DNA of 64,000 bases from Sphingobacteriales bacterium (lineage in GTDB: Bacteria > Bacteroidota > Bacteroidia > Chitinophagales > Chitinophagaceae), in assembly GCA_016235125.1 (NCBI GenBank), contig JACRLZ010000002.1:744001-808000 (forward strand), read 5' to 3'. The first letter of the stretch is position 1, and each line of letters begins with the position of its first letter. The notes beneath the pieces are model-generated. The model was not told where the DNA came from and did no database searches. It was given only the letters and a program-made list of their open reading frames with translations. This document shows, one piece after another, positions 9,585 to 36,401 of this stretch. The translations under genes were made by a program, and so were the position numbers.

Positions 9585-9621
9585 ATTAAAAGGATTGCCT
9601 GCGACTGGCAATCCTTTTAAT
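9585..9621 (-). terminator. Intrinsic terminator belonging to the decayed lpdA copy
   Basis: A perfect 15-bp inverted repeat (ATTAAAAGGATTGCC at 9585-9599, complement at 9607-9621, 7-nt loop). On the minus strand it is followed by a T-rich tail (TTTTTATTTT), so it ends minus-strand transcription. It lies 24 bp after the stop of the lpdA remnant, the place expected for that gene's own terminator. Intact lpdA at 37293 has none in its downstream 87 bp. Confidence 0.8.
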
Positions 9622-9817: not shown

Positions 9818-10004
9818 ATTCCCTTATTACTCCGCTGTTAAAAATAAATATCGAATAATCTGTAAGTTGATTTTGAAAATTATTAGAGAAATCTTGGTTG
9901 TCAAAGACTTGATTAGAAACAAAAAAGAGTTGGCTGGAAGATATTTTTATACATGATTACTTTTATTACAAATTGATTTTCTTAGATTGGGTCGCTTTTC
10001 TGCC

Positions 10005-11897: not shown

Positions 11898-14800
11898 ATG
11901 AAAAAAAGAGAAACAGTTGCTGTTTCGCAAAATGGTCTGTTTTATTTAAAGATTGCAAGGATTATGAAACTAACGGTTGCTTTTTTGTTGATTGCCTGTT
12001 TAAAGGTTTCGGCAGAAGGTTGGGGCCAGGAAAAGATTACCTTGAAAATGAATGCGGCAGAAATTAAAAAAGTACTTTTTGCCATTGAGAAAAAAACAGA
12101 ATACAGATTCCTTTTTGCCGAAGCATCGGTAAAAGACAAACCCAAAGTCAATGTAGATGTCCATGAAGCCACCCTTCCGGAAGTACTGGACAGGATACTG
12201 GCCAATACAGGCATCGCTTATAAACTGCTGGGCACAAACCTCGTTGTTCTTAAAGAAGGGGTGTCGGGAGAAATCATAGCCCAGGAAATTAAAATAACAG
12301 GAAGAGTGACCTCTGCTTCAGGCGAGCCACTGGCCGGCGCTTCTGTCTTTGTTAAAGGAAGCAGAACCGGGACAGTAACAGATGCAAACGGAAATTTTTC
12401 CATTACCGTACCAGACGATGCAGTTTTGGTGATCAGTTCTGTAGGGTATGAATCAGCAGAGGTTTCTGTAAAAGGCAAAACAGAGGTCAATGTATCACTC
12501 CGCCTTTCTGAAAGGGTACAGGATGCCGTGGTGGTGATCGGTTATGGTACTGCGAGCAAAAGAGACCTTACCGGGTCAATTGTAAAGCTGTCGGGTAAAG
12601 ATGTGGCTGACAAGCCCAATGTGAACCCTGTGGCTTCCCTGCAGGGAAAAGTAGCCGGAGTAAGTATTGTGAATTCCGGTACACCCGGGCAGGAACCGGA
12701 TATTCGTATCAGAGGCACAAATAGTCTTTCACCAGGTGGTGCAAGGCCGCTTTACCTTGTTGATGGAATATTTAATGACAATATCAATTTTCTTAATCCA
12801 AACGATATTGAATCAATTGAAATATTAAAAGACCCCTCATCGCTGGCCATTTTTGGTGTTCGTGGTGCAAATGGAGTAATTGCTGTTACTACAAAAAAGG
12901 CAAAGTCCGGACAGATAAGCATCAATTTCAATTCTACATTCAGCTCAAAAAAACTGGTTGATAAAATTGAAATGGTAAATGCATCGGAGTTCAAAACCCT
13001 TTTTGAGGAAGAAGAGGATAATCTTGGTATAACCGGGCCCAGCCGTTTTGACTTTACTCCCTGGACTGGTAATACAGACTGGATCGATGAAATGACAAGA
13101 AGCGGAATGGCTTTCACCAACAATCTTAGTTTGTCTGCCGCCACGGATAAAAATAAATTTTACTTTGGCGTTGGCCAAACCTATGAAGAGGGCATTATAC
13201 GGCATGAACAACTGAAGCGTATTACTCTTAACCTGAATGACGAAGTGAAACTAAGTAAGGGGATAAAATTCGGATTTACCCTGAATGCAGTGAGACAAAG
13301 AAACCCCTACGGTTCTGCAAAAGGGCTTTTATTCAATGCCCGCCGTATTTGGCCTGTAACCCCTGTTTATGACAATGCCCATGCTGCATACTATAACCTA
13401 GCTTTTCAGGCCGGCCAGATGGTGAACCCGGTTTGGGAATTGAATGATAACTGGGACAAAGAACTGGTTTATGAAAACAGGATGGTTGGAAGTATATATG
13501 CTGATATTTCTTTCCTGAAATATTTAAATTTAAGATCTACGTTTTACGCTGATATGTCAAATGTGGATGGCAGAACGTACAGGCCAATCGACAGTCTTTA
13601 TGATCCTATAAGCAACACTGTATTCGTTCATCCTTCTTACAATCGTACAGCAGTGAGTCAATCGAATCAGCGTTGGAATAAGTTTCAGCAGGATCACATC
13701 CTCACTTTCAGGAAAAATTTCAATGATCACGGAGTTACAGCAATTGCAGGTTTTACTACCTATTATAATGATTACCGGGGATTATCTGGGTCGGTGAAGC
13801 AATCACTTACCGGAGACCCCATACCCAACGACAAACGGTTTTGGTATATTGACAATGGTTTTGGCGATAAAGCCACCCGTGAATCTTCTTCGGGTCAATT
13901 TGAAAGAACAACAGTTTCGACCCTGGTTCGTCTTCTTTATAATTATAAGGGAAAGTACCTGTTAAACGGATCATTCCGCCGCGACTGGTCTTCAGCCTTC
14001 CGTCCCGATTATGGCAACCAGGGGCAGAATTTTTATTCTGTTGGCGCCGCATGGGAAATCAGCAAAGAGGATTTTTTCAAAAATCAGAAAATATTTGACT
14101 ACCTGAAACTGAAAGGAAGCCTGGGTGTTTTGGGAGGACAGAATACTTATGGATTTGACTATCCTGCATACCCTGCTTTAAAAACAAGCGGAAGCGCTGT
14201 ATTTGGCAGCCTGATTGTGCCTGTATTCGCCGAAACATATTTAGCAGACAGGAACCTTCATTGGGAAACTGTGCATGGAAAAGAGATAGGGATAGAATTT
14301 GATGCCCTGAAAAGAAAACTGCATGGCGAGATTGTTTATTATCACAAAACCACCAAGGATATTATGGCCCTGGTATCTTCCGGCGCCGGTCAGTCAACCC
14401 TGACGAATATTGGTAATATGCGAAACAAGGGCTTTGAATTTTCAGCAGGCTATACTCATAACCTCACACAAGACCTGGTAATGACCGTATCAGGAAACCT
14501 GACCACTTATGACAATTTGTTTCTCGAATCTCCTTTTACTTCAAACCCTGACGAACAATATCCAAGCAGAACGGTAGCTGGATTTCCAATCGGTTATTTT
14601 TATGGATATGTAGTGGAGGGTATTTATCAAACTTATGCAGATAAACTGGCTTCTCCGGTTATGAACCTCGGAAGCTCCTATGGCCCGGGTGATTTAAAGT
14701 ATAAAGACCTGAACGGAGATGGAGTGGTGAATACAGATGACAGAATGATGATAGGCAACCCAACGCCTGATTTCACTTATGGAGGAAGCATAGCATTGAA

Positions 14801-15251
14801 GTATAAAGGCTTTGATCTTGGTGTGGACATGCAGGGAGTTTATGGTAATGAAATTTACCGTTACTGGGGAAGCTCAGAATTACCGTATACCAAATTCAAC
14901 TATCCGAAATTCAAACTGAACCGCTGGCATGGTGAGGGAACTTCCAACTGGGATCCGATATTGGGTGACAATCACACCACCAACAGACTTCCTTCAACCT
15001 ATGGTATTGAGGACGGCAGCTATTTCAGGATCAGAAACCTTCAATTGGGATACAATTTCAATCCTGCTATGCTCAGCAAACTGCATATTAAAAGCCTGAG
15101 GGTTTTTATCAATATTCAGAATCTGAAAACATGGAAGCATAACTCAGGTTATTCTCCTGAATTTGGCGGTTCGCCCACTTCTTTTGGTGTGGACGTAGGC
15201 CATGATCCTATTCCCAGAATTTTCTCAGGAGGTATTAATGTTAATTTCTAA
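11898..15251 (+). CDS. SusC/RagA-type TonB-dependent receptor with STN signalling domain
   Basis: 1117 residues. The long n-region before the hydrophobic stretch (MKLTVAFLLIACLKVSAEG) is usual for FecIR-linked receptors, so the ATG at 11898 is kept. Domains in order: STN (secretin/TonB short N-terminal, about 48-100, with ITLKMNAAEIKKVLFAIEKK), which signals to FecR; a CarboxypepD_reg-like domain (about 134-205); the TonB plug with VVVIGYGTASKRDLTGSI and the RIRGTNSL and LVDGIFN motifs; then the barrel to the C terminus (GGINVNF). It imports glycan fragments as the pair of the SusD protein that follows 22 bp later, and its presence in a FecIR trio makes it both transporter and sensor of this locus. 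Confidence 0.96.
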   Translation: MKKRETVAVSQNGLFYLKIARIMKLTVAFLLIACLKVSAEGWGQEKITLKMNAAEIKKVLFAIEKKTEYRFLFAEASVKDKPKVNVDVHEATLPEVLDRILANTGIAYKLLGTNLVVLKEGVSGEIIAQEIKITGRVTSASGEPLAGASVFVKGSRTGTVTDANGNFSITVPDDAVLVISSVGYESAEVSVKGKTEVNVSLRLSERVQDAVVVIGYGTASKRDLTGSIVKLSGKDVADKPNVNPVASLQGKVAGVSIVNSGTPGQEPDIRIRGTNSLSPGGARPLYLVDGIFNDNINFLNPNDIESIEILKDPSSLAIFGVRGANGVIAVTTKKAKSGQISINFNSTFSSKKLVDKIEMVNASEFKTLFEEEEDNLGITGPSRFDFTPWTGNTDWIDEMTRSGMAFTNNLSLSAATDKNKFYFGVGQTYEEGIIRHEQLKRITLNLNDEVKLSKGIKFGFTLNAVRQRNPYGSAKGLLFNARRIWPVTPVYDNAHAAYYNLAFQAGQMVNPVWELNDNWDKELVYENRMVGSIYADISFLKYLNLRSTFYADMSNVDGRTYRPIDSLYDPISNTVFVHPSYNRTAVSQSNQRWNKFQQDHILTFRKNFNDHGVTAIAGFTTYYNDYRGLSGSVKQSLTGDPIPNDKRFWYIDNGFGDKATRESSSGQFERTTVSTLVRLLYNYKGKYLLNGSFRRDWSSAFRPDYGNQGQNFYSVGAAWEISKEDFFKNQKIFDYLKLKGSLGVLGGQNTYGFDYPAYPALKTSGSAVFGSLIVPVFAETYLADRNLHWETVHGKEIGIEFDALKRKLHGEIVYYHKTTKDIMALVSSGAGQSTLTNIGNMRNKGFEFSAGYTHNLTQDLVMTVSGNLTTYDNLFLESPFTSNPDEQYPSRTVAGFPIGYFYGYVVEGIYQTYADKLASPVMNLGSSYGPGDLKYKDLNGDGVVNTDDRMMIGNPTPDFTYGGSIALKYKGFDLGVDMQGVYGNEIYRYWGSSELPYTKFNYPKFKLNRWHGEGTSNWDPILGDNHTTNRLPSTYGIEDGSYFRIRNLQLGYNFNPAMLSKLHIKSLRVFINIQNLKTWKHNSGYSPEFGGSPTSFGVDVGHDPIPRIFSGGINVNF

Positions 15252-15273
15252 GCTTATAAAAAACAAAAGCAAT

Positions 15274-16776
15274 ATGAAAAAAAATATTCAAACTCTGCTT
15301 CTGATTATGATCCTTCCTTCATTGATGGTCATATTTGGAGGATGTAAGAAGTTTCTTGACAGAGCTCCTTTGCAGGCATCGCTTGAAGATTTGAATCAGG
15401 GCGGGCTGGAAGGCCAGGTGTTCGGACTGTATGGGAATTTCCTGGATCGTAATGGTTCTTATCATGGGTTCAGCAGCATACCCTGGTTTGCACTAAATTC
15501 ATTCCGTGGCGATGATGCCATGAAAGGCAGCAGCGCTGCAGATGGCGCTGACTGGGAAACGGTATATGATAATTTCCAGTACCAAAAAGCACACTGGTCA
15601 GCTTCGATCTACTGGGATCAGAAGTATAATATGATCAATAAAGCCAATACTGTTCTGCAGACTGCAGATTCTCTCGGCTTGTCAGATCCGGCTTCACTGG
15701 TCAATATTGGCGAAGCAAAATTTTTCAGGGCATTAACCTATTTTGACCTTGTGAGAGTTTTTGGAGAAGTGCCCAAAATCGATTTCAGGATATATAATCC
15801 AAATGATTCCAAAAAACCAAAAGCCACAGTACCACAGATATGGGCATTGATTGATGCCGACCTGACTGCAGCAATAGCAAACCTGCCTCCTGATTGGAAC
15901 AATGCGTCAGGAAACAGCAAGTTTCCGGGAAGGCTGACCCGGTATGCGGCAATGACCCTGGCTGCCAAGACAAAAATATACCGGGGAGATTGGGCGGGTT
16001 GTTTGGGTCTTTGTCAGCAGGTTATCAGTTCAGGTAAATATCAGTTATTGAGTGACTATAGTTCTTTGTTTAAAGTGGAAGGAGAAAACTCCAAGGAATC
16101 ACTTTTTGAGATACAGGCATATGTGGGACCAAACGGAGTACCTGATGCAGGACATGAATACGGTGTAGAACAAGGTGTGAGGGGTTCTGGCGCATGGGAT
16201 CTTGGTTGGGGATGGAATGTGCCTGAGCCAGGTCAGGAAGCTTCTTACGAAGCCGGAGATAAAAGAAGAGGGGCTACTATTTTGTATTCTGGCCAGGATG
16301 ATGGTTATGGTAAAACTGTTCCTGCATTTCCAACCGTGCCAAGACTTTATTGGAATAAAAAAGTATATCCCGAACCTTCAATGCAAGCTTCGACCGGAAG
16401 GCGGCAAAACAACTGGCTGAACCACGGGGTAATCCGTTATGCAGATGTTTTGTTGCTGGCAGCTGAGGCCGCCAACGAATTAGGTGGTGCAGGAAATCAG
16501 GCTGATGCAGTAACATGGATAAATACGATACGCAGCAGAGCCGGCCTTTCCAATGTTGCATTTACTACCCAGGCAGCTATGAGGGATATTATTAAAAGAG
16601 AAAGAAGATCAGAACTGGCAATGGAAGGAGAAAGATTCTTTGACCTGGTAAGATGGGGAGATGCTATTGCAGTTTTGGGTGGCCGTGGATACACCCCCTG
16701 TCATCAATATTATCCGCTTCCTCAATCAGCCATAGATTTTGCAGGAGGCGTACTGATTCAAAATCCCTGTTGGTAA
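15274..16776 (+). CDS. SusD/RagB family outer-membrane glycan-binding lipoprotein
   Basis: 500 residues from the ATG at 15274 (an earlier in-frame ATG at 15202 overlaps the susC end and lacks a signal sequence). A lipobox at IFGGCKKFLDRAP puts Cys near residue 23. The alpha-helical TPR-like SusD fold is shown by EAKFFRALTYFDLVRVFGEVP, AAKTKIYRGDWAGCLGLCQQVI and, near the C terminus, IKRERRSELAMEGERFFDLVRWG, the family's strongest signature. SusD proteins cap the SusC barrel and pull glycan into it. Gap to susC is 22 bp and to the LamG protein 23 bp, so one transcript is likely. Confidence 0.96.
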   Translation: MKKNIQTLLLIMILPSLMVIFGGCKKFLDRAPLQASLEDLNQGGLEGQVFGLYGNFLDRNGSYHGFSSIPWFALNSFRGDDAMKGSSAADGADWETVYDNFQYQKAHWSASIYWDQKYNMINKANTVLQTADSLGLSDPASLVNIGEAKFFRALTYFDLVRVFGEVPKIDFRIYNPNDSKKPKATVPQIWALIDADLTAAIANLPPDWNNASGNSKFPGRLTRYAAMTLAAKTKIYRGDWAGCLGLCQQVISSGKYQLLSDYSSLFKVEGENSKESLFEIQAYVGPNGVPDAGHEYGVEQGVRGSGAWDLGWGWNVPEPGQEASYEAGDKRRGATILYSGQDDGYGKTVPAFPTVPRLYWNKKVYPEPSMQASTGRRQNNWLNHGVIRYADVLLLAAEAANELGGAGNQADAVTWINTIRSRAGLSNVAFTTQAAMRDIIKRERRSELAMEGERFFDLVRWGDAIAVLGGRGYTPCHQYYPLPQSAIDFAGGVLIQNPCW

Positions 16777-16799
16777 TTAAAAATTTAAAAATTATCGAT

Positions 16800-17660
16800 A
16801 TGAAAAAAAATATAAGATACATTTCACTGATAGTTTTTGCTGCTCTTAGTTTCATTTCCTGCCAGAAAATGAACAGGCCCGATTTGGGTAATTATCCAAA
16901 AGACGCCAACCCACCGGGTGGGCCATTAAAATTCTATGCAGCATATGATGGTACTTCCTCAGATGCGCTTAGAAATGCAGTGGACAGTATCCGGGCTAAT
17001 TTTGCAGCAAGTAATCCATTGTCATCAATAACAGGAATCACCGGAAAAGCAGTTCAGGGCACCCTGGATAAAGCTATTAAATATTCATCGGCTAATGACT
17101 GGGCAAATTCAACAAGCATATCCATTGCCTTCTGGCTCAAAAACACACCGTGGAGTGGTGGCCCCGGATTTTTATTCAATCTTACCGATAAGGATCATTG
17201 GGCCAACGGTAAAACCTGGATGCTGATTGAAGACCAGGGGCAGAGCAGTACCACGCAGGCAACAGTAAAATTTGTATTGCAGGATCAGTGGTTTGAATTT
17301 GTCGGGGCAAAAAAACTGGACAGACCTCTTCTGGATGGTAACTGGCATCATTGGGCGATAGTTTATGATGAAACTACCTCAAAACTCACATACTATTTTG
17401 ACGGGCAGGCTTTAACCGGGTTGCATCCTTCTCTTACAGATGTAAAGAATGGAGCAAATCCAAGAGGGCCTTTAAATTTAAAATCAGGCGATGGAACAGC
17501 CGGGCAATTGGTGGTTGGAGGCTGGAATAAGCAAGTTGGGTTACCGGGTCCCGGTGATGGCTGGATACAGGGCTTTAACGGGGGATTAGACCAATTCAGA
17601 TTGTATGGCAAAGCCTTATCAGCTTCTGAAGTGCTGGCCCTGTTTAATGCTAAACTTTAG
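16800..17660 (+). CDS. LamG-domain lipoprotein, probable surface glycan-binding protein (SusE/F position)
   Basis: 286 residues from the ATG at 16800. The lipobox SFISCQKM marks a lipoprotein. About residues 95-285 form a concanavalin-A-like LamG (laminin G) beta-sandwich, with the typical NWHHWAIVYDET strand and the closing GGLDQFRLYGKALSASEVLALF. It stands directly after susD, where PULs encode surface glycan-binding proteins (SusE/SusF-type) that need not share sequence. It therefore probably holds the polysaccharide at the cell surface. No catalytic residues are evident; a degenerate ConA-like hydrolase cannot be excluded. Confidence 0.8.
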   Translation: MKKNIRYISLIVFAALSFISCQKMNRPDLGNYPKDANPPGGPLKFYAAYDGTSSDALRNAVDSIRANFAASNPLSSITGITGKAVQGTLDKAIKYSSANDWANSTSISIAFWLKNTPWSGGPGFLFNLTDKDHWANGKTWMLIEDQGQSSTTQATVKFVLQDQWFEFVGAKKLDRPLLDGNWHHWAIVYDETTSKLTYYFDGQALTGLHPSLTDVKNGANPRGPLNLKSGDGTAGQLVVGGWNKQVGLPGPGDGWIQGFNGGLDQFRLYGKALSASEVLALFNAKL

Positions 17661-17700
17661 ATTTTTTCATATAAGCAATCGTTCACAAATCAAGCAATCA

Positions 17701-17722
17701 AGGGCTGAAATCTTTCAGCCCT
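17701..17722 (+). promoter_or_regulatory. Hairpin between the LamG and FG-GAP genes
   Basis: AGGGCTGAAA (17701-17710) and TTTCAGCCCT (17713-17722) are perfectly complementary. There is no T-tract, so it is more likely a partial terminator, processing site or mRNA-stabilising stem that lowers expression of the downstream genes relative to susCD. Confidence 0.45.
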
Positions 17723-17753
17723 TCATTACTTTAAAATAAGGCGACAATCAGGC

Positions 17754-20700
17754 ATGAGGATTTATACCAGGTTATTGTTCACTGTTTTTATTTCGACAGT
17801 AATCATTACAACTGGCTGCAATAAGCCCCAAAGACTTTTTAGCAAAATTTCTTCATCACATTCCGGGGTTTCATTTTCCAATCAGTTGCTGAAAAGACCT
17901 TTGTTTAATATTTTATACTATTTGTATTATTATAATGGGGGCGGCGTTGCGGTTGGTGATATCAATAACGATGGCTTAACGGACATTTATTTTTCCGCCA
18001 ACAGTAAAGGAAATAACAAACTCTACCTGAATAAGGGAAATTTCCAATTTGAAGATATAACAGCAAAAGCGGGAGTTGGCGGAATCGCTGATTGGTGCAG
18101 CGGTATTACGATGGCTGATGTGAACAGCGACGGGCTGCTGGATATTTATGTTTCTGCTGTAAGCGGCTCATGGGGTTTGCAGGGAGGTAATGAATTGTAC
18201 ATTAATAATGGGAATAATACATTTACCGAAAGCGCCGCTCAATACGGACTGAATTGCAAAGGGCTTTCCACCCAGGCTGTTTTTTTCGATTATGACCATG
18301 ATGGTGATCTTGATTGCTATGTTCTCAGGCATTCTAAAAGACCACATGCCAATATTGTAGATACCAGCCTTCGCAAAGTCATTGACTCGTCTGCCGGCGA
18401 TAAACTGTTCAGAAACGAATTGAACGCAGGAGAAAAAAAATTTACCGATGTGTCAACCCAGGCGGGAATTTATCAAAGCAATCTGGGATATGGATTGGGA
18501 CTGGCGGTAGCCGATTTCAATAACGATGGGTGGGAAGATATTTATGTGGGCAATGATTTTCATGAAAATGATTATTACTACATCAATAACGGGAATGGTA
18601 CGTTTGCCGAAAGCGGCGCAAAACACTTTCGTCATTACAGCCGGTTCAGTATGGGCAACGATGCGGCTGATTACAATAATGACGGGCAAACTGATGTGAT
18701 CACCGTGGATATGCTGCCACCCGATGAAAAAACATTGAAAACATATGGAAGCGATGAAAATCCCGATATCTATAAAGTAAAACTTGAGATACAGGGTTAC
18801 CAGCACCAGTATTCAAAGAACTGCCTGCAACGGAATAATGGCAGCGGCAGTACATTCAGCGAAATGTCGTTGATGAAAGGCGTAGCTGCTACCGACTGGA
18901 GCTGGGCGCCTTTGTTTGCCGATTTTGATAATGATGGTTTCAAGGATCTTTTTATTTCCAGTGGCATTGTCAAAAGACCTGTTGACCTCGACTATGTCAG
19001 ATTTGCTTCCGATATGGAAATGAAACAGGGATTGAGCCGTACTGACAGGTTTGACGATACCACTATCAATGCAATGCCTGATGGAAGCTCCCATCCTTTT
19101 TTATTCAAAGGAAACGGTAATGAACCATTCAAGGATGTAAGCAAAGAATGGGGAACCGCCGGGTTAAAAGGATATTTCAATGGCGCTGCTTACGCCGATC
19201 TTGATAATGATGGAGACCCTGATCTTGTGATTAATGCTTTGAATTCAGAAGCAATTATTTTAAAAAATAATACTGAAAAAAAGAATTCAATTACCATTTC
19301 ATTCAAAGCAGATAACCTGAATAGATTTGGTATTGGTACCAAAGTCTATCTCTTCAGCAAAGAAAAAATGCAATACCAGCAACTGATGCTTACGAGGGGC
19401 TTTGAATCTTCGGTAGATACCCGTTTGCACTTTGGCTTAGACACATTGAACTCAGCTGACAGTATTTTGATTGTGTGGCCCGATCAGCGATACCAGGTTC
19501 TGAAAAATATACCCGCAAATAAACCTCTGACCGTGTATTCAAAGGATGCATCGGGAGTTTTTGAATACAATGCATTTTTCCCTGCAAAACCGGATGCGTT
19601 TATTCCTGCCGGAGAAAAATTTTCCTGGAAGCATAGAGAAAATGAATTCTTTGACTATAATGTGCAATACCTGATACCGCATGCTTTGTCAACCCGGGGG
19701 CCCAAAATTGCTGTGGCTGATGTAAACGGCGACGGGTTGGATGATATGTATATATGCGGCGCCAGATTTCAACCCGGGGCATTAATGATACAACAACTTA
19801 ATGGCTCATTTATTATAAGTGATACTTCTGTATTTAATGCGGATGGTATAGCTGAGGATGTGGATGCAGTTTTCTTTGATGCCAATGGAGATAAAAAGCC
19901 TGACCTGCTGGTGACGGGCGGAGGCAATGAGGTTTTGAAAAACAGTAAGGAAGGGGAAGACAGATTATATATTAATGATGGAAAGGGGCATTTTACTAAG
20001 GCTATACTTCCGTTTCCCAATCAATATGAAAACAAATCATGCATTGCCAGTGCCGACGTTGATAAGGATGGCGATCAGGATTTCTTTGTGGGAGGTCTTG
20101 CAAGTCCCACCGCATATGGGCAGCCGGTGCATTCTTATATGTACCTGAATCAGGGCAATGGAAAATTTGATTTGGCAACTGCCAAAACGATCTTTCTGCA
20201 GTCGTTGGGAATGGTAACAACCGTAGTTTTTGCTGATGTGAATAATGATACCTGGCCTGATCTGGTAGTGACGGGTGAATGGATGGGCGTCAAAATTTTT
20301 ATAAATAAAAACGGGAAATTTACAGCTTCAGAAATTCCTTCTTCCACAGGTTTGTGGCAAACCATATATGCAGCAGATGTGAATGACGACGGATTCACCG
20401 ATCTGCTCGCAGGCAACTGGGGCCACAATACAAAGCTTTACGCAGGTAAAAACGGGCCCTGCAAACTTTATGTAAAAGATTTTGACAATAACAGCTCTGT
20501 TGAGCAGGTAATGTGTTACACCTTAGGTGGAAAAGAATACACATTTCTTGCCAAGGATGAACTGGAACGTTCGTTACCGGTATTAAAGAAAGCCTATTTG
20601 AAATACAGCGAAGTAGCAGGCAAAACCGTTCAGTATATGTTCTATGATTTATTTAAGGATTACGCAGAACTGAAAGCGGAAACCCTGAGTTCGTCCTGTT

Positions 20701-21044
20701 TCATTAATGATGGCAAAGGCAATTTTACAAGGATCGATTTACCTGATGAGTTGCAATTGGCTCCGGTAATGGCGTTTGCCAAAAATTCATCGGATTCTCC
20801 CGGTTCTTTTATTGCCGCAGGAAATTTTTATGGTACGATTCCGTATGAGGGACGTTATGACGCATTGCTTCCTGTTATATTTTCTTATCAAAACAAAACG
20901 AAATCATTTACAGTGGATAATAAGATAGCTGATTTTGACGGAGAAGCAAGGGATATAAAATGGCTGAATACTGCCGGGGGAGGAAAAATGATGGTGATTG
21001 CAAGAAACAATAACCCAATGCTTTTTTTGAAACCCGTAAACTGA
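17754..21044 (+). CDS. FG-GAP/VCBS-repeat lipoprotein with ASPIC/UnbV domain (CRTAC1-like)
   Basis: 1096 residues. The lipobox ITTGCNKP marks a lipoprotein. At least eleven calcium-loop motifs of the form DxNxDGxxDxY are seen (for example DINNDGLTDIYF, DFNNDGWEDIYV, DVDKDGDQDFFV), two sets of FG-GAP blades forming beta-propellers. Between the sets, near residues 510-605, is an ASPIC/UnbV module (FGIGTKVYLFS...RGFESSVDTRLHFGLD). Such proteins are common in Bacteroidota PULs, but no enzymatic activity is established for them that I know of; binding of glycan or protein with calcium is inferred. It lies 26 bp before the haloperoxidase-like gene, and I recall the two families often being neighbours. 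Confidence 0.88.
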   Translation: MRIYTRLLFTVFISTVIITTGCNKPQRLFSKISSSHSGVSFSNQLLKRPLFNILYYLYYYNGGGVAVGDINNDGLTDIYFSANSKGNNKLYLNKGNFQFEDITAKAGVGGIADWCSGITMADVNSDGLLDIYVSAVSGSWGLQGGNELYINNGNNTFTESAAQYGLNCKGLSTQAVFFDYDHDGDLDCYVLRHSKRPHANIVDTSLRKVIDSSAGDKLFRNELNAGEKKFTDVSTQAGIYQSNLGYGLGLAVADFNNDGWEDIYVGNDFHENDYYYINNGNGTFAESGAKHFRHYSRFSMGNDAADYNNDGQTDVITVDMLPPDEKTLKTYGSDENPDIYKVKLEIQGYQHQYSKNCLQRNNGSGSTFSEMSLMKGVAATDWSWAPLFADFDNDGFKDLFISSGIVKRPVDLDYVRFASDMEMKQGLSRTDRFDDTTINAMPDGSSHPFLFKGNGNEPFKDVSKEWGTAGLKGYFNGAAYADLDNDGDPDLVINALNSEAIILKNNTEKKNSITISFKADNLNRFGIGTKVYLFSKEKMQYQQLMLTRGFESSVDTRLHFGLDTLNSADSILIVWPDQRYQVLKNIPANKPLTVYSKDASGVFEYNAFFPAKPDAFIPAGEKFSWKHRENEFFDYNVQYLIPHALSTRGPKIAVADVNGDGLDDMYICGARFQPGALMIQQLNGSFIISDTSVFNADGIAEDVDAVFFDANGDKKPDLLVTGGGNEVLKNSKEGEDRLYINDGKGHFTKAILPFPNQYENKSCIASADVDKDGDQDFFVGGLASPTAYGQPVHSYMYLNQGNGKFDLATAKTIFLQSLGMVTTVVFADVNNDTWPDLVVTGEWMGVKIFINKNGKFTASEIPSSTGLWQTIYAADVNDDGFTDLLAGNWGHNTKLYAGKNGPCKLYVKDFDNNSSVEQVMCYTLGGKEYTFLAKDELERSLPVLKKAYLKYSEVAGKTVQYMFYDLFKDYAELKAETLSSSCFINDGKGNFTRIDLPDELQLAPVMAFAKNSSDSPGSFIAAGNFYGTIPYEGRYDALLPVIFSYQNKTKSFTVDNKIADFDGEARDIKWLNTAGGGKMMVIARNNNPMLFLKPVN

Positions 21045-21070
21045 TAATTTAATTATATAAACGATTTTTT

Positions 21071-22393
21071 ATGAAACGGTGTGTCGCAGTTTTGGCAGTC
21101 ATTTTTGCAATTACCGGCTGCAACGAAAAAAAAGAATATAAAAATTTATTTAATGATCCATTCCTGTATTCAAAAACAGTAAAAGCTTATAACTATGTTG
21201 TAATGGGAAATAACCTGGCGCCAATTGTGGCAAGCCGTTGTTATACCTATGCCGCTATCGCTGCTTATGAAGCGATGGCAATCGGCGATTCCCGGTTTCA
21301 ATCTCTTTCGGGGCAAATAAATCATTTGCCCGGCATTACTTTTCCGGATACTGCAAATGTAAATTTTCAGTATGCGGCATTACTTGCTTTTTGTAAAGCT
21401 GGCGAGGCTACCACTTTCCCTGCGGGAAGTTTGAAAGAGCAGATTTCATTACTCGACTCAATCGCAAAAGAATCGGGGATGAGCAGTACCATGAAAGAAG
21501 CTTCAAAAAAACTGGCCGATTCTGTTGCAGCACAAATAATACGGTGGAGTAAGGGGGATAACTATGCACAAACAAGAACAGCGCCCAAATATGAAATTAA
21601 AACAGATGTTGAAGGAAGGTGGGTGCCCACGCCGCCGGCTTATGCCCAGGCTTTGGAACCACACTGGAAAGAAATAAGGCCGATGGTAATGGATAGCGGA
21701 AGCCATTTTGTCACGCCTCGTCCACCAGCGTTTGATATGAAGAACAAAGAAAGCAAATATTACAAAGAAGTGATGACAGTGAAAAATGCAGGCGATAGTC
21801 TGAGTGATGAGCAAAAACATATTGCCGAATTCTGGGATGATCTTGGAAACAGGGCTATTGTGGAAGGGCATGTGATGTTTACCGCCAAAAAGTTTTCACC
21901 CCCCGGTCACTGGATGAATATTGTCGGGATCGCCTGCAAAAACGCAAATGCTGACTTTTCCACAACAATTTATGCTTATGCTAAAACTGCCATTGCCGGT
22001 TTTGACGCATTTATTCAGTGCTGGGATGAGAAATACAGAAGCAATACGGTAAGACCGGAAACAGTTATTAATAAATATATTGATCCCGGCTGGAGACCGT
22101 ATCTGCAGACACCTCCTTTCCCGGAATATACCTGTGGTCATAGCACAGTGTCTTCTGCTGCTGCAGAAGCATTGACAGATGTATTTGGTGATAATTTTGC
22201 TTATACCGATACTTCTGAACTCGAGTTTGGAATAAAGAATCGTTCATTCACTTCATTTCGCCAGGCGGCGGAAGAAAATAACTGGGCAAGGTTTTATGGC
22301 GGCATTCATTTCCATAATTCCTGTATTGTAAGTACTGAATATGGCAGAAAGGTGGGTGAATTGGTAAATCAACGACTTAAAATGAAGCGTTAA
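21071..22393 (+). CDS. Vanadium-dependent haloperoxidase / PAP2-superfamily lipoprotein
   Basis: 440 residues with lipobox FAITGCNEKK. The three vanadate/phosphate-binding motifs of the PAP2 superfamily are visible: Lys321-x6-Arg328-Pro, Cys355-Gly-His357 (usually Ser-Gly-His), and Arg407-x5-His413. Length and the all-helical pattern match the bacterial vanadium haloperoxidase-like group (PF01569-related). These enzymes oxidise halides with peroxide or, in other members, hydrolyse phosphates. Two deviations are seen: Cys in place of Ser355, and HFHNS where HxxxD is common. Location on the cell surface or periplasm is implied by the lipobox. Role within a glucan PUL is unknown; oxidative attack and phosphatase activity are both open. 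Confidence 0.85.
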   Translation: MKRCVAVLAVIFAITGCNEKKEYKNLFNDPFLYSKTVKAYNYVVMGNNLAPIVASRCYTYAAIAAYEAMAIGDSRFQSLSGQINHLPGITFPDTANVNFQYAALLAFCKAGEATTFPAGSLKEQISLLDSIAKESGMSSTMKEASKKLADSVAAQIIRWSKGDNYAQTRTAPKYEIKTDVEGRWVPTPPAYAQALEPHWKEIRPMVMDSGSHFVTPRPPAFDMKNKESKYYKEVMTVKNAGDSLSDEQKHIAEFWDDLGNRAIVEGHVMFTAKKFSPPGHWMNIVGIACKNANADFSTTIYAYAKTAIAGFDAFIQCWDEKYRSNTVRPETVINKYIDPGWRPYLQTPPFPEYTCGHSTVSSAAAEALTDVFGDNFAYTDTSELEFGIKNRSFTSFRQAAEENNWARFYGGIHFHNSCIVSTEYGRKVGELVNQRLKMKR

Positions 22394-22406
22394 AAGAAAT
22401 GATATT

Positions 22407-22577
22407 GTGAAAAATGTGCAACTATACTTGTCAACGCCTTTTGGGGTTCAACGAAATAGAACACAAAGCTATGCTGATAAATTGCAAACCAAAGCAACGG
22501 GTAATAAAGCGCAGGGTGATGCAGCCTTCGCTGATTATTTTATTAATGCCGGGGTCACGGTCAGATTCTTAAAATAG
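22407..22577 (+). pseudogene. Probable remnant of an outer-membrane beta-barrel gene (C-terminal end)
   Basis: A 56-codon frame opens near the GTG at 22407 and ends TAG at 22577. It contains VQLYLSTPFGVQRNR, GDAAFADYFINAG and ends VTVRFLK. The RNR...GDAAFADY...VRF pattern looks to me like the last strands of Bacteroidota outer-membrane transporter barrels. There is no signal peptide and no start with a ribosome site, so it is best read as the surviving 3' end of a deleted gene between the haloperoxidase-like gene and the first GH30. A second frame (22414-22571) is also open but looks random. Confidence 0.45.
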
Positions 22578-22584
22578 TGAAAAG

Positions 22585-24015
22585 ATGAATACAAGGTTGT
22601 TGCTGATATCATCATGTTTATTCTTTGTATGTGGCGATTGCTCACAAAAGGAAGGTGAAACACCCGTTCCACCTTCACCAACCTTGTTAAATGAGGTGGA
22701 TGTGTGGATGACAAAGCCTGATCAGTCTGTACTATTACAAAAGCAAACGGATATATTATCATTCAGCAGTACAACAAACAGTTATCCGACCATTTCTGTT
22801 GACTCCGCTATAATGTACCAGACAGTTGATGGATTCGGATATACTTTGACAGGAGGCAGCGCCTGGCTTATTAACCGGATGGGTAATACAGAAAAGGCCG
22901 GTTTATTAAACGAGTTATTTGGGAATAGCGGTAATTCAATCGGGGTGAATTATCTCAGGATAAGCATTGGTGCATCGGATCTTAATCCTTCGGTGTTCAG
23001 TTATGATGATATGCCAGCGGGTCAAACAGATCCAACACTGGCCAGTTTCAGTCTTTCGCAGGATACTGTGGATCTGATTCCTGTATTGAGACAAATTCTC
23101 GCCATAAACCCCAATATAAAGATTATGGGTTCTCCCTGGAGTCCACCTGCATGGATGAAGGATAATGGAAACACCATCGGTGGAAATTTATTACCTCAGT
23201 ATTACCCGGCATATGCAAATTATTTTGTGAAATATATTCAGCACATGCAGGCCAGGGGCATAACCGTACATGCCGTTACCGTTCAAAATGAACCCGAGCA
23301 TGGCGGTAACAATCCAAGTATGCTGATGTCATCCGCACAACAGGCAGAATTTATAAAAAATAATCTGGGCCCGGCTTTCCAGGTAGCTGGAATTACCACA
23401 AAGATTGTAATATGGGATCATAACTGTAATAACCCCAATTATCCCATAAACATTTTAAATGATGTTGCTGCAAAACCGTTTGTAGATGGCTCGGCTTTTC
23501 ATTTATATGCAGGCGACATCAGCGCTTTATCAATGGTGCATACTCTGCACCCGGATAAAAATATTTATTTTACTGAGCAGTGGACAGGGGCCAATAGCAG
23601 TTTTGATGGCGATCTGAAATGGCACATCAAAAATGTGATCATTGGTTCAATGCGCAACTGGAGCCGCATTGCACTGGAATGGAATCTTGCTAATGATCCG
23701 GCGTATAGCATCCATACTCCCGGCGGCTGCACTGAATGTAAAGGCGCTGTTACCATTAATGGTTCGGCTATAACGAGGAATGTGAGCTATTATGTTATAG
23801 CACATGTTTCCCGATTTGTACCACCCGGTTCTGTAAGAATAGACAGTAATCTGTTGCCCGATCTTCCGGGTGTTGCGTTCAAAACCCCATCCGGGAAAAA
23901 GGTATTACTTGTATTGAATGAAAGCGCAGTGACGCAGAATTTTAATATTGGATTCAAAAATAAAATCCTGGTAACATCACTGCCACCCGGGGCAACGGGA
24001 ACTTATGTATGGTAA
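22585..24015 (+). CDS. GH30 family glycoside hydrolase 1, lipoprotein (probable beta-1,6-glucanase type)
   Basis: 476 residues. The N terminus has a hydrophobic stretch and a Cys-containing lipobox (FVCGDCSQKE), so it is probably anchored at the outer membrane. The (beta/alpha)8 domain has GH30 hallmarks: VDGFGYTLTGGSAW at the first strand, SPWSPPAWMKDN, the acid/base Glu236 in TVQNEPEH and the nucleophile Glu331 in YFTEQW. The C-terminal beta-sandwich side domain follows to the end. GH30 includes endo-beta-1,6-glucanases, glucosylceramidases and xylanases; in a glucan PUL the beta-1,6-glucanase role is the most likely. Only 17 bp separate it from the paralogue that follows. Confidence 0.9.
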   Translation: MNTRLLLISSCLFFVCGDCSQKEGETPVPPSPTLLNEVDVWMTKPDQSVLLQKQTDILSFSSTTNSYPTISVDSAIMYQTVDGFGYTLTGGSAWLINRMGNTEKAGLLNELFGNSGNSIGVNYLRISIGASDLNPSVFSYDDMPAGQTDPTLASFSLSQDTVDLIPVLRQILAINPNIKIMGSPWSPPAWMKDNGNTIGGNLLPQYYPAYANYFVKYIQHMQARGITVHAVTVQNEPEHGGNNPSMLMSSAQQAEFIKNNLGPAFQVAGITTKIVIWDHNCNNPNYPINILNDVAAKPFVDGSAFHLYAGDISALSMVHTLHPDKNIYFTEQWTGANSSFDGDLKWHIKNVIIGSMRNWSRIALEWNLANDPAYSIHTPGGCTECKGAVTINGSAITRNVSYYVIAHVSRFVPPGSVRIDSNLLPDLPGVAFKTPSGKKVLLVLNESAVTQNFNIGFKNKILVTSLPPGATGTYVW

Positions 24016-24032
24016 AATATAAAAAGGAAAAG

Positions 24033-25475
24033 ATGAAACTGATTTCAATTACTGCTCTGCTTATCTTTATTGCGGGTACCGTTTTTGCTCAGAATAAACC
24101 ACATTTTACTACTGGTAAGAAAGTTATTATATACACAACTGCCGACAGCACAGATTACAGGTTGTCTGCAACGGATACTTTACAGTTCAGGAATTTGGGT
24201 CAGCCGCTGGAAACACAAATTTGCGTTTTTGTAGACCCTGGTAAAACATTTCAAACTTATTTTGGAACCGGAGCTGCCATCACAGATGCTGCTGCAGAAA
24301 CTTTTTACAAATTGCCAGGCCAAACACAACAGGAACTGTTAAGAGCTTATTTTGATAAAAAGACAGGAATTGGTTATACGATTGCCCGGACAAATATTAA
24401 TAGCTGTGATTTCAGCAGTGATATGTACACTTATGTGCGGGAAGGGGATAAGGAATTAAAAACTTTCAGCATTGAGCATGATAGAAAATATAAAATACCC
24501 TTTATAAAAGAAGCGATGACAGCTGCAGGTGGCAAACTGAATTTATTTGCCAGCCCATGGAGCCCGCCGGGATGGATGAAGGATAATAATGAAATGCTCC
24601 ATGGCGGTAAACTGAAACCTGAATTCTACAGTAGCTGGGCGAAATATTATACAAAGTTCATAAAAGCTTACCAGACAGCCGGTGTACCCGTGTGGGGCAT
24701 ATCCATTCAAAACGAACCAATGGCAACACAGCGCTGGGAAAGTTGTATCTACACGGCTGAAGAAGAAAGAGATTTTTTAAAAAATCATTTGGGCCCCATT
24801 ATGGAAAAAGAAGGGTTGGGTGATAAAAAAATTATTGGGTGGGATCATAACAGGGATTTATTATATCAAAGGGCAAGCACCTTGTTAAATGATAGGGGTG
24901 CAGCTAAATATTTATGGGGAATAGGATTTCACTGGTATGAGCCCTGGAGCGGAGGTGAACCCATGTATGATAATGTAAAACGGGTGTATGAAGCATACCC
25001 TGCCACAAACCTTTTTTTCACAGAAGGTTGCAAGGAGGCTTTCAATATTCAAAAGATTAATAACTGGCAAATTGGCGAAAAATATGCTGCTAATATGATC
25101 TATGATTTTAATAACGGTATGGTGGGCTTTACCGACTGGAATATTTTATTGGATGAAACAGGTGGCCCCAATCATGTGCAGAATTTTTGTTTTGCACCTG
25201 TGCATGGGGATACAAAAACCGGGAAGTTGATTTATACAAATGCATATTATTATATCGGCCATTTTTCAAAATTCATTCAGCCCGGAGCAAAGCGCATTGC
25301 CGCTGCTGCAAGCCGAAGCCAGTTGTTGACCACGGCATTTCTAAATCCTGACGGCAAAATAGTGGTGATTGTAATGAACCAATCCGGAAAGCCGGCAGAC
25401 TATTTTTTATGGATAAGCGGGAAAGCGGCTGCAGTAAAGGCTCTTCCTCATTCTATAGCAAGTCTGATTTTATAA
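24033..25475 (+). CDS. GH30 family glycoside hydrolase 2, secreted (probable beta-1,6-glucanase type)
   Basis: 480 residues from the ATG at 24033, which has AAGGAAAAG just before it and opens a classical signal peptide ending AGTVFAQ; an in-frame ATG at 24009 overlaps the upstream gene. The catalytic barrel has FGTGAAITDAAAE, SPWSPPGWMKDN, acid/base Glu228 in SIQNEPMATQRWESC and nucleophile Glu331 in FFTEGCKEA. The QRWESC extension after the acid/base differs from its neighbour and resembles the beta-1,6-glucanase branch. It has no lipobox, so it is likely periplasmic, in contrast to the lipoprotein copy. The two enzymes are clear but distant paralogues. Confidence 0.92.
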   Translation: MKLISITALLIFIAGTVFAQNKPHFTTGKKVIIYTTADSTDYRLSATDTLQFRNLGQPLETQICVFVDPGKTFQTYFGTGAAITDAAAETFYKLPGQTQQELLRAYFDKKTGIGYTIARTNINSCDFSSDMYTYVREGDKELKTFSIEHDRKYKIPFIKEAMTAAGGKLNLFASPWSPPGWMKDNNEMLHGGKLKPEFYSSWAKYYTKFIKAYQTAGVPVWGISIQNEPMATQRWESCIYTAEEERDFLKNHLGPIMEKEGLGDKKIIGWDHNRDLLYQRASTLLNDRGAAKYLWGIGFHWYEPWSGGEPMYDNVKRVYEAYPATNLFFTEGCKEAFNIQKINNWQIGEKYAANMIYDFNNGMVGFTDWNILLDETGGPNHVQNFCFAPVHGDTKTGKLIYTNAYYYIGHFSKFIQPGAKRIAAAASRSQLLTTAFLNPDGKIVVIVMNQSGKPADYFLWISGKAAAVKALPHSIASLIL

Positions 25476-25487
25476 TATTAAAAATTT

Positions 25488-27170
25488 ATGATTACCCGTT
25501 CTGTAACATTTCTGCAAATTATTACGATCCTGCTTCTGAGCGGCTGGGTTGCTATAACGGGTTGCGGCAAAAACAAACAACCCGATCCACCCCCTCCTCC
25601 GCCACCGGTCAATTTTTCCATAACCAGCTGGGATGTGGATGGCATACCCAGTTTTGAAGACAACAAAGGTGTCAGCATCACCCCTCTTATCCGGCTCCAT
25701 TTTCCAACTGCTATCGACAGGGCATCTGTTGCTTCTTCTATAGCATTTCAAACGGCAGACATTAATATTTCATACAGCAATAGCGACAGCATCCTTGTCA
25801 TTCAAGCCAATGCCCCGCTGGCTTATCTTTCAAGATATACCCTGTCGGTTGCGAATTCGCTGAAATCAAAACAGGGAGGAAAACTTAGTACACCTGTAAG
25901 CATAAAATTATTAACGCAATACGACCCGTCGGATAAATTTCCCATGCTTTCAGATAATGAATTGCTTGATAAAGTTCAGCAGCAAACATTCAAATACTTT
26001 TGGGATTATGGTCATCCTGTTTCAGGGATGGCAAGGGAGCGGGACAGCAGTCCCGAAACCGTAACAACAGGCGGAACAGGTTTTGGCATTATGGCAATGA
26101 TAGCCGCCATAAACAGGGGGTTTATCACAAGGGTTGAAGGAAGAGACAGGATTTTAAGGATTGTCGACTTTCTAACCAACAACTGCACCCGTTATCACGG
26201 GGTTTTTTCTCACTGGATTTATGGCTCAACGGGACAAACACAGCCATTCAGCACAAATGATAACGGAGCCGATCTGGTAGAAACATCTTTTTTACTGGAA
26301 GGCCTGATTACTGCAAGACAGTACTTCAACGGAGCCGATGCAGTTGAAACTGAACTCAGAAATAAAATAAACTCAATTTGGGATGCAGTGGAATGGAACT
26401 GGTTTCGTCAAAGCGGTCAGAATGTACTGTACTGGCACTGGAGTCCCGACAAAGGATGGATAATGAATCATCAGATCAAAGGATGGAACGAGGCACTCAT
26501 CGTTTATGTGTTGGCTTCTTCATCCAGAACGGACTCCATACCTAAAATTGTTTATGACAATGGGTGGGCAAGTAATGGCGGCATGGTGAACAATGCTACC
26601 TATTATGGTTATCAGCTTCCCTTAGGGTCGCCAAACGGCGGTCCCTTGTTTTTTGAGCATTATTCATTTTTAGGGATCAACCCCAATGGCCTCAGTGATG
26701 CCTATGCCAATTATCAGACACAAACAAAAAATCATGCACTGATTAATTATGAGTATTGCAAAGCCAATCCCCAGAGATGGTATGGGTACAGCAGCCAGTG
26801 TTGGGGCCTTACAGCAAGCGATGGCCCGGCGCCCGGCTATTACCAGGCCCATAGTCCGAATAATGACAGGGGAGTAATCACTCCCACCGCTGCCTTATCA
26901 TCTTTTCCATACACACCGGCAGAAAGTATGAATGCACTGAAATTTTTTTATTATAAGCTGGGAAATAAGTTATGGGGTAATTACGGGTTTTATGATGCAT
27001 TTAAAATGGATGATCCCTGGTTTGCATCGTCAACACTGGCCATTGACCAGGGGCCGGTGGTGGTAATGATAGAAAATTACAGAAGCGGATTGTTATGGAG
27101 TTTGTTTACCAGCGCACCGGAAATTAAAAATGGAATGAGAAGATTAGGTTTTACTGCGCCATATTTATGA
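25488..27170 (+). CDS. GH144-type glycoside hydrolase 1, lipoprotein with Big_5 domain (beta-1,2-glucanase family)
   Basis: 560 residues. A lipobox (ITGCGKNK) and a run of seven prolines precede an Ig-like Big_5 domain (about 45-135: VSITPLIRLHFPTAIDRASV). The rest is the glycoamylase-type (alpha/alpha)6 domain (PF10091): QQTFKYFWDYGHPVSGMARER, GGTGFGIMAM, YWHWSPDKGW, the conserved GWNE (Glu335), and the closing ENYRSGLLW. This domain defines GH144, whose characterised members are endo-beta-1,2-glucanases. From memory the Glu of the G(W/Y)NE motif is essential in the Chitinophaga enzyme. Anchored at the surface by its lipid, it may make the first cuts. Its stop overlaps the next start by 4 bp (ATGA). 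Confidence 0.9.
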   Translation: MITRSVTFLQIITILLLSGWVAITGCGKNKQPDPPPPPPPVNFSITSWDVDGIPSFEDNKGVSITPLIRLHFPTAIDRASVASSIAFQTADINISYSNSDSILVIQANAPLAYLSRYTLSVANSLKSKQGGKLSTPVSIKLLTQYDPSDKFPMLSDNELLDKVQQQTFKYFWDYGHPVSGMARERDSSPETVTTGGTGFGIMAMIAAINRGFITRVEGRDRILRIVDFLTNNCTRYHGVFSHWIYGSTGQTQPFSTNDNGADLVETSFLLEGLITARQYFNGADAVETELRNKINSIWDAVEWNWFRQSGQNVLYWHWSPDKGWIMNHQIKGWNEALIVYVLASSSRTDSIPKIVYDNGWASNGGMVNNATYYGYQLPLGSPNGGPLFFEHYSFLGINPNGLSDAYANYQTQTKNHALINYEYCKANPQRWYGYSSQCWGLTASDGPAPGYYQAHSPNNDRGVITPTAALSSFPYTPAESMNALKFFYYKLGNKLWGNYGFYDAFKMDDPWFASSTLAIDQGPVVVMIENYRSGLLWSLFTSAPEIKNGMRRLGFTAPYL

Positions 27171-28564
27171 CAGGTATGATTAAAATTTTTTTTGCCACTG
27201 TTATATTGCTTTCCTGTAACCCAGGTAAGCATTACGGGAGTAGTGCAGCCGATATGTCTGCAGTTGATTCTGTAATTTTTACCGAAGTGCAGCGTCAAAC
27301 CTTTCAATATTTCCGGCATGGGGCCGAACCGGTAAGCGGCATGGCAAGAGAAAGGTTTCATGCGGACGGCAATTATCATACGTTTCAGAACAAGAATATC
27401 ATCACCAGCGGGGGCAGTGGATTCGGCGTAATGGCCTGGTTGGTTGCCATTGAACGAAATTTTGTAACAAAAGAAGAAGGCAGATCAGGATTAGAAAAGA
27501 TTGTAAATTTTTTAGAAACAGCCGACCGCTTTCATGGCGCATGGCCACACTGGTGGCAGGGAGAAACCGGCAGGGTCAGCCCCTTCAGTCCGGATGATGA
27601 CGGCGGCGACCTGGTGGAAACATCTTTTTTAATACAAGGTTTACTTTGTGTAAGACAATATTTTAATACGGGCAATGAAAAAGAGAGAACATTAGCGGCA
27701 AGAATTGACAAGCTTTGGAAAGAAGTGGAATTTGATTGGTACCGGAATAAGCAAAATGTTTTGTACTGGCACTGGAGCCCGGTTCATCAATGGAAAATGA
27801 ACTTTCCTGTTCGTGGATACAACGAATGTTTGATTATGTATGTGCTGGCGGCTTCATCTCCCACCCACGGAGTACCTGCCGAAGTATATCATGAAGGCTG
27901 GGCAGAAAATGCCCGGCCGGATGACCCGGTCGGACGGGGAAAAATAAACGATGTAAACAAACCCGATGGTATTGCTGCTGATTATCCGTACAAGTTACAA
28001 ATGAAACACCAGGGCGATGCCTGGAATGGCGGACCTTTGTTTTGGGCGCACTATTCTTACCTCGGTCTTGACCCCCGGGGGTTAAAAGATAAATATGCCG
28101 ATTATTGGAAAGAATGTAAAAACCAGGCACTGATAAACTATCAATGGTGTGTTGATAACCCCAAAAAATTCAAAGGATACGGGCCTGCTAACTGGGGCCT
28201 TACCTCCAGCTATTCGGTAAAAGGATATGATGGGCATGCACCCACTATGGAAAGAGATATTGGAGTTATCTCTCCAACGGCTGCTTTATCATCTTTTCCG
28301 TATACACCGCAGCAATCAATGGCGGCTATGAAGTACTGGTACAATAATAAAAAAGACAAACTCTGGGGACCCTATGGTTTTTATGATGCGTTCAGCGAAG
28401 AACATAACTGGTATCTGCCCCATTACCTGGCCATTGACCAGGGACCAATAGTAGTAATGATGGAAAATTACAGAAGCGGGTTACTCTGGAAATTATTCAT
28501 GAGTTGTCCGGAAATAAAAGAAGGATTAATAAAACTGGGTTTCAGCAGCCCGCATTTAAAATAG
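27167..28564 (+). CDS. GH144-type glycoside hydrolase 2, lipoprotein (beta-1,2-glucanase family)
   Basis: 465 residues; the start could be 27167 (4-bp ATGA overlap) or 27176. The lipobox is VILLSCNPG. It lacks the Big_5 domain of its neighbour and consists only of the catalytic (alpha/alpha)6 domain: QRQTFQYFRHGAEPVSGMARER, GGSGFGVMAW, YWHWSPVHQW, GYNE (Glu220), TAALSSFPYTPQQS and ENYRSGLLW. Shared motifs with the upstream gene run the full length, so this is an old tandem duplication within the locus. Beta-1,2-glucanase activity is inferred from GH144; the second copy may be exo-acting or prefer shorter chains. The next gene starts 4 bp after the stop. Confidence 0.9.
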   Translation: MTGMIKIFFATVILLSCNPGKHYGSSAADMSAVDSVIFTEVQRQTFQYFRHGAEPVSGMARERFHADGNYHTFQNKNIITSGGSGFGVMAWLVAIERNFVTKEEGRSGLEKIVNFLETADRFHGAWPHWWQGETGRVSPFSPDDDGGDLVETSFLIQGLLCVRQYFNTGNEKERTLAARIDKLWKEVEFDWYRNKQNVLYWHWSPVHQWKMNFPVRGYNECLIMYVLAASSPTHGVPAEVYHEGWAENARPDDPVGRGKINDVNKPDGIAADYPYKLQMKHQGDAWNGGPLFWAHYSYLGLDPRGLKDKYADYWKECKNQALINYQWCVDNPKKFKGYGPANWGLTSSYSVKGYDGHAPTMERDIGVISPTAALSSFPYTPQQSMAAMKYWYNNKKDKLWGPYGFYDAFSEEHNWYLPHYLAIDQGPIVVMMENYRSGLLWKLFMSCPEIKEGLIKLGFSSPHLK

Positions 28565-28568
28565 CAGG

Positions 28569-31633: not shown

Positions 31634-31639
31634 AAAAAT

Positions 31640-34076: not shown

Positions 34077-34086
34077 AAATCAGCTG

Positions 34087-36393: not shown

Positions 36394-36401
36394 ATTGTAA
36401 G

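Follow-up and report, generated by a model that had tools for sequence, protein, structure and literature searches.

Results and Discussion

Genetic Organization of the Locus

What would an FG-GAP/ASPIC protein and a haloperoxidase-like (VHPO-fold) enzyme do side by side in a PUL? This question is raised by a stretch of 64,000 nucleotides (C3:744001-808000, hereafter the window) of a 3.58-Mb Chitinophagaceae genome, the closest named relatives of which are Chitinophagaceae and other Bacteroidota MAGs. The initial annotation had described two lipoprotein genes 26 bp apart, placed between a susCD-LamG block and glycosidases, and the two ORFs were found exactly so: both are on the same strand, with 26 bp from stop to start, flanked by susC-susD-LamG on one side and by GH30/GH144 genes on the other, and a lipobox-like motif (...TGC, recognized by eye) at both N-termini marks the products as putative lipoproteins. 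The features of the region are as follows.

9987..10595, + strand: ECF sigma factor, upstream of susC
10660..11760, + strand: FecR anti-sigma, upstream of susC
11898..15251, + strand: SusC/RagA TonB-dependent receptor with STN domain
15202..16776, + strand: SusD/RagB lipoprotein (overlaps SusC as called; the real start is probably further downstream)
16653..17660, + strand: Laminin_G_3 protein (overlaps SusD as called; the real start is probably further downstream)
17700..17723, + strand: terminator-like hairpin in the LamG/ASPIC gap
17754..21044, + strand: FG-GAP/ASPIC (CRTAC1-like) lipoprotein, 1096 aa, beta-propeller rich (ORF call, Pfam, fold search)
21071..22393, + strand: VHPO (vanadium-iodoperoxidase-like) lipoprotein, 440 aa, with K321, R328, C355, G356, H357, R407 and H413
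22395..22574, + strand: remnant, C-terminal 53–57 aa of a barrel-like protein of about 364 aa (tblastn, E 7e-11 to 3e-13)
22585..24015, + strand: GH30, nearest to the BT3312-type endo-1,6-beta-glucanase model (under cut-off) and 5ngk
24009..25475, + strand: second GH30
25488..27170, + strand: PF10091 protein, nearest to 4gl3 and 5gzh (endo-beta-1,2-glucanase)
27167..28564, + strand: PF10091 protein, GH144-type endo-beta-1,2-glucanase (5gzh, E 9e-199)

Downstream of the pair, genes for two GH30, two GH144-type, an Exo_endo_phos, a 741-aa, a GH43, a GDSL, a GH3 and a GH16 protein were identified, and the locus thus combines SusC-SusD with glycoside hydrolases, all on one strand, as a PUL does.

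Hairpins were also present at the same LamG/ASPIC place in five related loci (L063, L064, L068, L079 and L083). The scan of the region gave 16 terminator-like matches versus 12.7 in shuffled sequences (sd 4.2), and because this excess is only slight, the point depends on the recurring hairpins of the relatives and not on the scan. In view of the LamG/ASPIC hairpin, attenuation may lower the expression of ASPIC and VHPO below that of susCD, or the two genes may be transcribed from a promoter of their own.

The FG-GAP/ASPIC Protein

The 1096-aa protein contained FG-GAP_3 (PF13517) in ten stretches (E 1e-77) and UnbV_ASPIC (PF07593, E 1e-19), both over the Pfam cut-off. CRTAC1 (9etn), which likewise combines FG-GAP repeats with an ASPIC domain, was its sole solved sequence relative and also the top Foldseek match (E 6e-26) of its predicted model (pLDDT 87.6). 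The window protein differs from CRTAC1 in being about twice as long (1096 versus 551–586 residues), in being a lipoprotein with an additional C-terminal FG-GAP part, and in its place as operon partner of SusCD and a VHPO. The Foldseek matches after 9etn (spliceosome, DDB1 and others) were mostly generic propellers of low TM-score and were not used. FG-GAP/ASPIC proteins are common in Bacteroidota surface operons. ASPIC genes were frequently placed behind susC-susD, and no assigned role for FG-GAP/ASPIC proteins was found in the open-access literature consulted.

The VHPO-Fold Enzyme and Its Active Site

The 440-aa protein was homologous over its full length (residues 4–438) to the Zobellia VHPO 4cit (phmmer, E 5e-113), and its AlphaFold2 model (pLDDT 85) matched 4usz/4cit first in Foldseek (TM 0.83–0.90, E ~1e-28). 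This full-length homology and the VHPO fold bear out the haloperoxidase-like label of the initial annotation. A PF01569 (PAP2) match was not obtained in Pfam at E 0.001 and the VCPO_2nd match was below threshold, whereas the 517-aa second VHPO-like protein of the other, non-PUL cluster does match PF01569; as nothing exceeded the cut-off for the 440-aa protein, labels from Pfam (PAP2) and NCBIfam were dropped.

The Zobellia galactanivorans vanadium iodoperoxidase (4cit/4usz), itself from Bacteroidota, shares with the window enzyme the vanadate-site residues K321, R328, G356, H357 and R407 and the axial H413, all of which align. The sole vanadate-site residue changed is that at position 355, a Cys in the window enzyme instead of the vanadate-contacting Ser, which is Ser402 in C. 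inaequalis CPO according to passages of PMC10278073 and PMC9144378. The window enzyme also differs from that of Zobellia in sitting in a glucan PUL beside an ASPIC gene.

Residue counts and a tree were obtained from 217 VHPO rows, reduced to 202 by removal of rows shorter than 380 aa and of near-identical rows. Cys355 was present in 73/202 rows, 72 of which, including the window, form one clade (99 SH-like) and one of which lies elsewhere, in a FastTree topology with SH-like support only and with a warning of long branches meeting. By score, Cys355 occupied 72 of the 79 rows in the bit class of the window enzyme, the class limits (640, 487 and 360) having been drawn by us from scores to one profile; among phylum loci outside the order it was found in one of 26 (L240). 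The clade is further marked, relative to the Zobellia enzyme, by N403, N404, A406, F408, H415, S417 and S421, each in at least 93% of its rows and in 0–12% of rows outside, the first five of them being only a few residues away from R407 or H413. Elsewhere S406 is near-invariant (122/123 rows outside the Cys clade and its sister).

A disulphide between C355 and C418 was considered: C418 was present in 68/72 Cys rows, yet Cys also occupied this position in 43/123 rows outside the clade and its sister, and since these outside rows almost all have Ser355 a coupling of the two positions is not supported. No earlier report of this Cys change was found in the open-access literature consulted. Because of the Ser-to-Cys change, ordinary haloperoxidase chemistry is not to be assumed, and a Cys at this position may not be compatible with peroxide-dependent reactions. 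The VHPO-fold enzyme NapH3 (8cxl), with only 15–16% identity to the window enzyme and from another pathway, offers a precedent for departure from halogenation, its PDB title naming an alpha-hydroxyketone rearrangement.

These residues bear on the defensive role that had been raised for the pair, in which a halide peroxidase would use iodide or bromide to consume H2O2 where the cell feeds, and so shield the cell or hold back competitors. Such a role is suggested by the Zobellia relative, titled an iodoperoxidase, and by the higher expression of Zobellia vIPO3 on Ascophyllum than on alginate or maltose, as given in a part of PMC9296495. It is opposed by the replacement of the vanadate-contacting Ser by Cys across the clade, together with the flanking changes. 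The sample names of the relatives suggest lakes, sludge and soil, not the sea, and iodide is scarce in those habitats; this defence is considered rather unlikely here.

Association of ASPIC and VHPO Genes

The initial annotation had named neighbourhood statistics as a check on its reading, and a strong tendency of the two families to be neighbours was found. Both families were searched in 40 family genomes, and 21 of the 42 VHPO matches taken at E <1e-27 had an ASPIC domain within 2.6 kb, versus 0.31 expected if placement is presumed uniform; conversely, 21/100 ASPIC domains had a VHPO nearby. When genomes were tallied at E<=0.001, 20 contained both families, one VHPO only, two ASPIC only and 17 neither (Fisher 4e-8). 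Beyond the order, an immediate ASPIC gene was found at 14/26 VHPO loci, a count that leaves out L264-L277 (14 of 40 loci), which are centred on ASPIC rather than VHPO.

Within the order, 100 loci were inspected, consisting of 41 of the 42 family matches at E <1e-27 (the 42nd being the window) and 59 others taken mostly best first. VHPOs of 360–487 bits and less than 490 aa had an immediate ASPIC gene in 40/41 cases, located upstream on the same strand in 18, downstream on the same strand in eight, on both sides in three, convergent in nine and divergent in two. The proportion was 3/35 at 487–640 bits, 2/15 at 640 bits or more and 1/9 for distant VHPOs. These counts are to be read with the knowledge that the greedy ORF script failed to call at least the VHPOs of L066, L123 and L194, which are absent from them, that the 75 named loci are close relatives by design, and that L138 is on the same contig as L069 and L278 on the same contig as L064. 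Adjacency is kept through changes of orientation, which speaks for a link between the genes beyond a common promoter.

Co-divergence was analysed with 57 adjacent pairs from 44 genomes. ASPIC and VHPO distances were correlated (Mantel r 0.60), a value reached in 0/2000 shuffles, and when partners were shuffled within genomes only the observed correlation was again reached in 0/2000. When paralogue pairs of the same genome were set against the closest pair from outside, the true partner was nearer in 31/32 comparisons, which share genomes and are not independent. Groups with swapped order and with convergent genes recur in both the ASPIC and the VHPO trees. Paired ASPIC and VHPO genes co-diverge as units, and the pairing is real, old and widely conserved in Bacteroidota. 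No published ASPIC-VHPO link was found in the open-access literature consulted.

The branch of the window enzyme itself is mostly unpaired: only 3/60 non-PUL Cys rows had an immediate ASPIC gene, these 60 including L074 (of the PUL-type clade, cut by the contig end) and one row outside the Cys clade. Beyond the PUL-type clade, L106 and L141 are Cys-clade rows adjoining an ASPIC gene.

Arrival of the Enzyme in the PUL

Within the Cys clade, the 14 PUL-type VHPO rows group as a single clade, and each has a co-directional ASPIC gene directly upstream. Since the window branch is otherwise mostly without pairing, adjacency in the PUL may be one event inherited by descent. The same 60 other Cys rows showed, judged by gene sizes only, a different neighbourhood: a 165–215-aa gene just upstream of the VHPO in 47/60, one of ~680 aa preceding it in 39/60, a 300–400-aa gene downstream in 48/60, and another VHPO-like gene no more than three genes away in 26/60. 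At L105 the ~680-aa gene encodes a GH65 protein, the second VHPO-like gene matches PAP2, and the 367-aa product, which has a weak MipA match, resembles an outer-membrane barrel on visual inspection.

Such a barrel-like gene (~364 aa) follows the VHPO of window type outside PULs, and the gap 3' of the window VHPO retains its last 53–57 residues at 51–58% identity (tblastn). The barrel gene is intact in L067; L068 keeps an intact barrel gene and a PAP2 gene, and L079 has a 39-residue remnant. Because the barrel-gene remnant lies behind the VHPO, the window enzyme is taken to have come from another cluster, of which it still carries a trace. The nearest ASPIC outside the PUL clade, L240_6262, is one gene away from a Cys-type VHPO.

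A search with the window ASPIC protein gave matches in 149/244 family genomes. Among the 24 PUL-type ASPIC loci with an examined neighbourhood, three had a VHPO (the window, G209 and G377) and 21 did not; this set comprises 20 loci on the ASPIC tree, only one of which (L278 = G377) has the enzyme, L265 and L273 without it, and G209 and the window with it. VHPO presence required at least six changes on the ASPIC tree, in which L066 had been set by hand to 'with VHPO'. The PULs with a VHPO do not form one ASPIC clade, which calls for several losses or transfers: the enzyme was either gained once, early, and then often lost, or moved between PULs in cassettes. Because most PULs of this type keep ASPIC without the enzyme, ASPIC looks like a core part and the VHPO like an optional one.

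The rarity of the enzyme, the repeated changes in its presence and the barrel remnants in the window and L079 would also suit a passenger, that is, a VHPO from a translocated cassette which landed behind ASPIC and is decaying like its former neighbour, with only ASPIC serving the PUL. We regard this as unlikely, for the full catalytic set is kept in 14/14 rows of the PUL-type clade although the barrel gene is mostly gone, nearly every member of another VHPO group is paired, and the Cys-clade enzymes of L106 and L141 also stand beside ASPIC.

Possible Substrate of the PUL

Osmoregulated periplasmic glucans consist of beta-1,2 chains with beta-1,6 branches and carry phosphoglycerol, phosphoethanolamine or succinate groups, as described in a portion of PMC11842490. 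The GH144 (beta-1,2) and GH30 (beta-1,6) enzymes, together with the Exo_endo_phos and GDSL proteins, therefore fit these glucans as a putative substrate, fungal beta-1,6-glucan being an alternative. A similar arrangement of GH144-type and GH30 genes with SusCD occurs in Chitinophaga beta-glucan loci, the source of the GH144 founding member CpSGL (5gzh/5gzk); no published PUL with ASPIC and a VHPO was found in the open-access literature consulted.

A role of both proteins in handling the polymer of the PUL, as first proposed, is upheld only in part: it agrees with the neighbour tendency, but the enzyme is absent from 21/24 PULs of the type, and in other settings the stretch retrieved around an ASPIC-VHPO pair mostly lacks a GH30/GH144 gene. 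The same facts weigh on removal of phosphate, in which the PAP2-fold enzyme would strip phosphate from decorated beta-glucans and the PUL would feed on the OPG of other bacteria. The glycosidase assignments and the Exo_endo_phos and GDSL genes speak for it, as does the likeness of VHPO and PAP2 phosphatase sites noted in a section of PMC9144378. Nevertheless, the nearest solved structures are the haloperoxidases 4usz/4cit, with acid phosphatases matching the model only at E 2e-3 and weaker (Foldseek), pairs without GH genes are common, and most species lack the enzyme in this PUL. We consider a phosphatase role improbable.

Proposed Function of the Module

ASPIC and VHPO probably form an extracellular module of two lipoproteins that is conserved in Bacteroidota, and a Cys-variant of its enzyme has here been joined to the ASPIC of a glucan PUL; we hold this with somewhat better than even confidence. 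The CRTAC1-like ASPIC protein would be a beta-propeller platform, probably loaded with calcium, that cooperates with the SusCD transporter in retaining cargo on the cell surface. The VHPO-fold enzyme would act on this cargo or on a partner attached to it. For the window lineage, the Cys-variant enzyme would have become attached to the ASPIC protein of a beta-1,2/beta-1,6-glucan PUL.

As far as the sequence allows a judgement, peroxide-dependent oxidation at the vanadate site would be the most likely single chemistry of the Cys clade, at slightly less than an even chance, and it is likelier for the Ser-type relatives. Another reaction would come second, as a distinctly less probable option, and phosphate-ester chemistry, which is thought unlikely, last. 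Our best guess for the role of the enzyme towards the substrate is surface oxidation of cargo held by ASPIC and SusCD; phosphate chemistry, a passenger role and a novel Cys-based reaction are the rivals still in play. On a wider and rather improbable reading, propeller and VHPO-fold enzyme would be the two parts of a surface device general to Bacteroidota, the propeller offering cargo or a cofactor to the enzyme, and the Chitinophagaceae Cys clade would have moved beyond vanadate-haloperoxidase chemistry, its Cys in the former metal pocket serving a novel reaction with beta-glucans of bacteria or fungi, or with the groups that decorate them.

The natural, fixed replacement of Ser by Cys in the pocket of a VHPO provides a direct one-residue test of the role of the serine, and also bears on how PAP2-fold enzymes change their chemistry. 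For the FG-GAP/ASPIC proteins, a partner enzyme that co-diverges with them independently of orientation is the first concrete handle.

Variation around the FG-GAP/ASPIC-VHPO Gene Pair

The gap between the LamG and ASPIC genes and the region upstream of susC each contain a hairpin:
Window 17700-17723, terminator-like hairpin in the LamG-ASPIC gap, with hairpins at the same position in five relatives
Window 9585-9621, hairpin of 15 pairs 5' of the ECF sigma gene, with a T-rich tail on either strand

In many PULs of the window's type the LamG-ASPIC gap holds a gene for a protein of about 410 amino acids, as exemplified by two related loci (L265:9378-10604 and L285:10669-11916); this gene is missing in the window. 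In another related PUL (L072:6881-9967) the ASPIC gene reads as three ORFs and is possibly broken or mis-assembled, and the VHPO of the same PUL is intact.

Further VHPO loci were found:
G000:C6:331.8-334.8 kb (L166), VHPO-ASPIC pair with swapped gene order and a Ser-type enzyme, the second pair in the window's genome
L105:6931-15056 and similar loci, other conserved cluster with a Cys-type VHPO, containing also GH65, a protein of about 187 amino acids without Pfam match, two barrel-like proteins and a PAP2 VHPO-like protein

Candidate Glucan Locus Downstream of the Pair

Window 29408-31633, gene for a 741-aa protein that matches GH15 below threshold and, at its N-terminus, sugar-esterase/GH2
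Window 22585-37205, genes for GH30 (two), GH144-type (two), Exo_endo_phos, GH43, GDSL, GH3 and GH16 proteins

The gene content of the latter makes it a candidate locus for the utilisation of osmoregulated periplasmic glucan (beta-1,2/beta-1,6), and a similar core is found again in many Chitinophagaceae.
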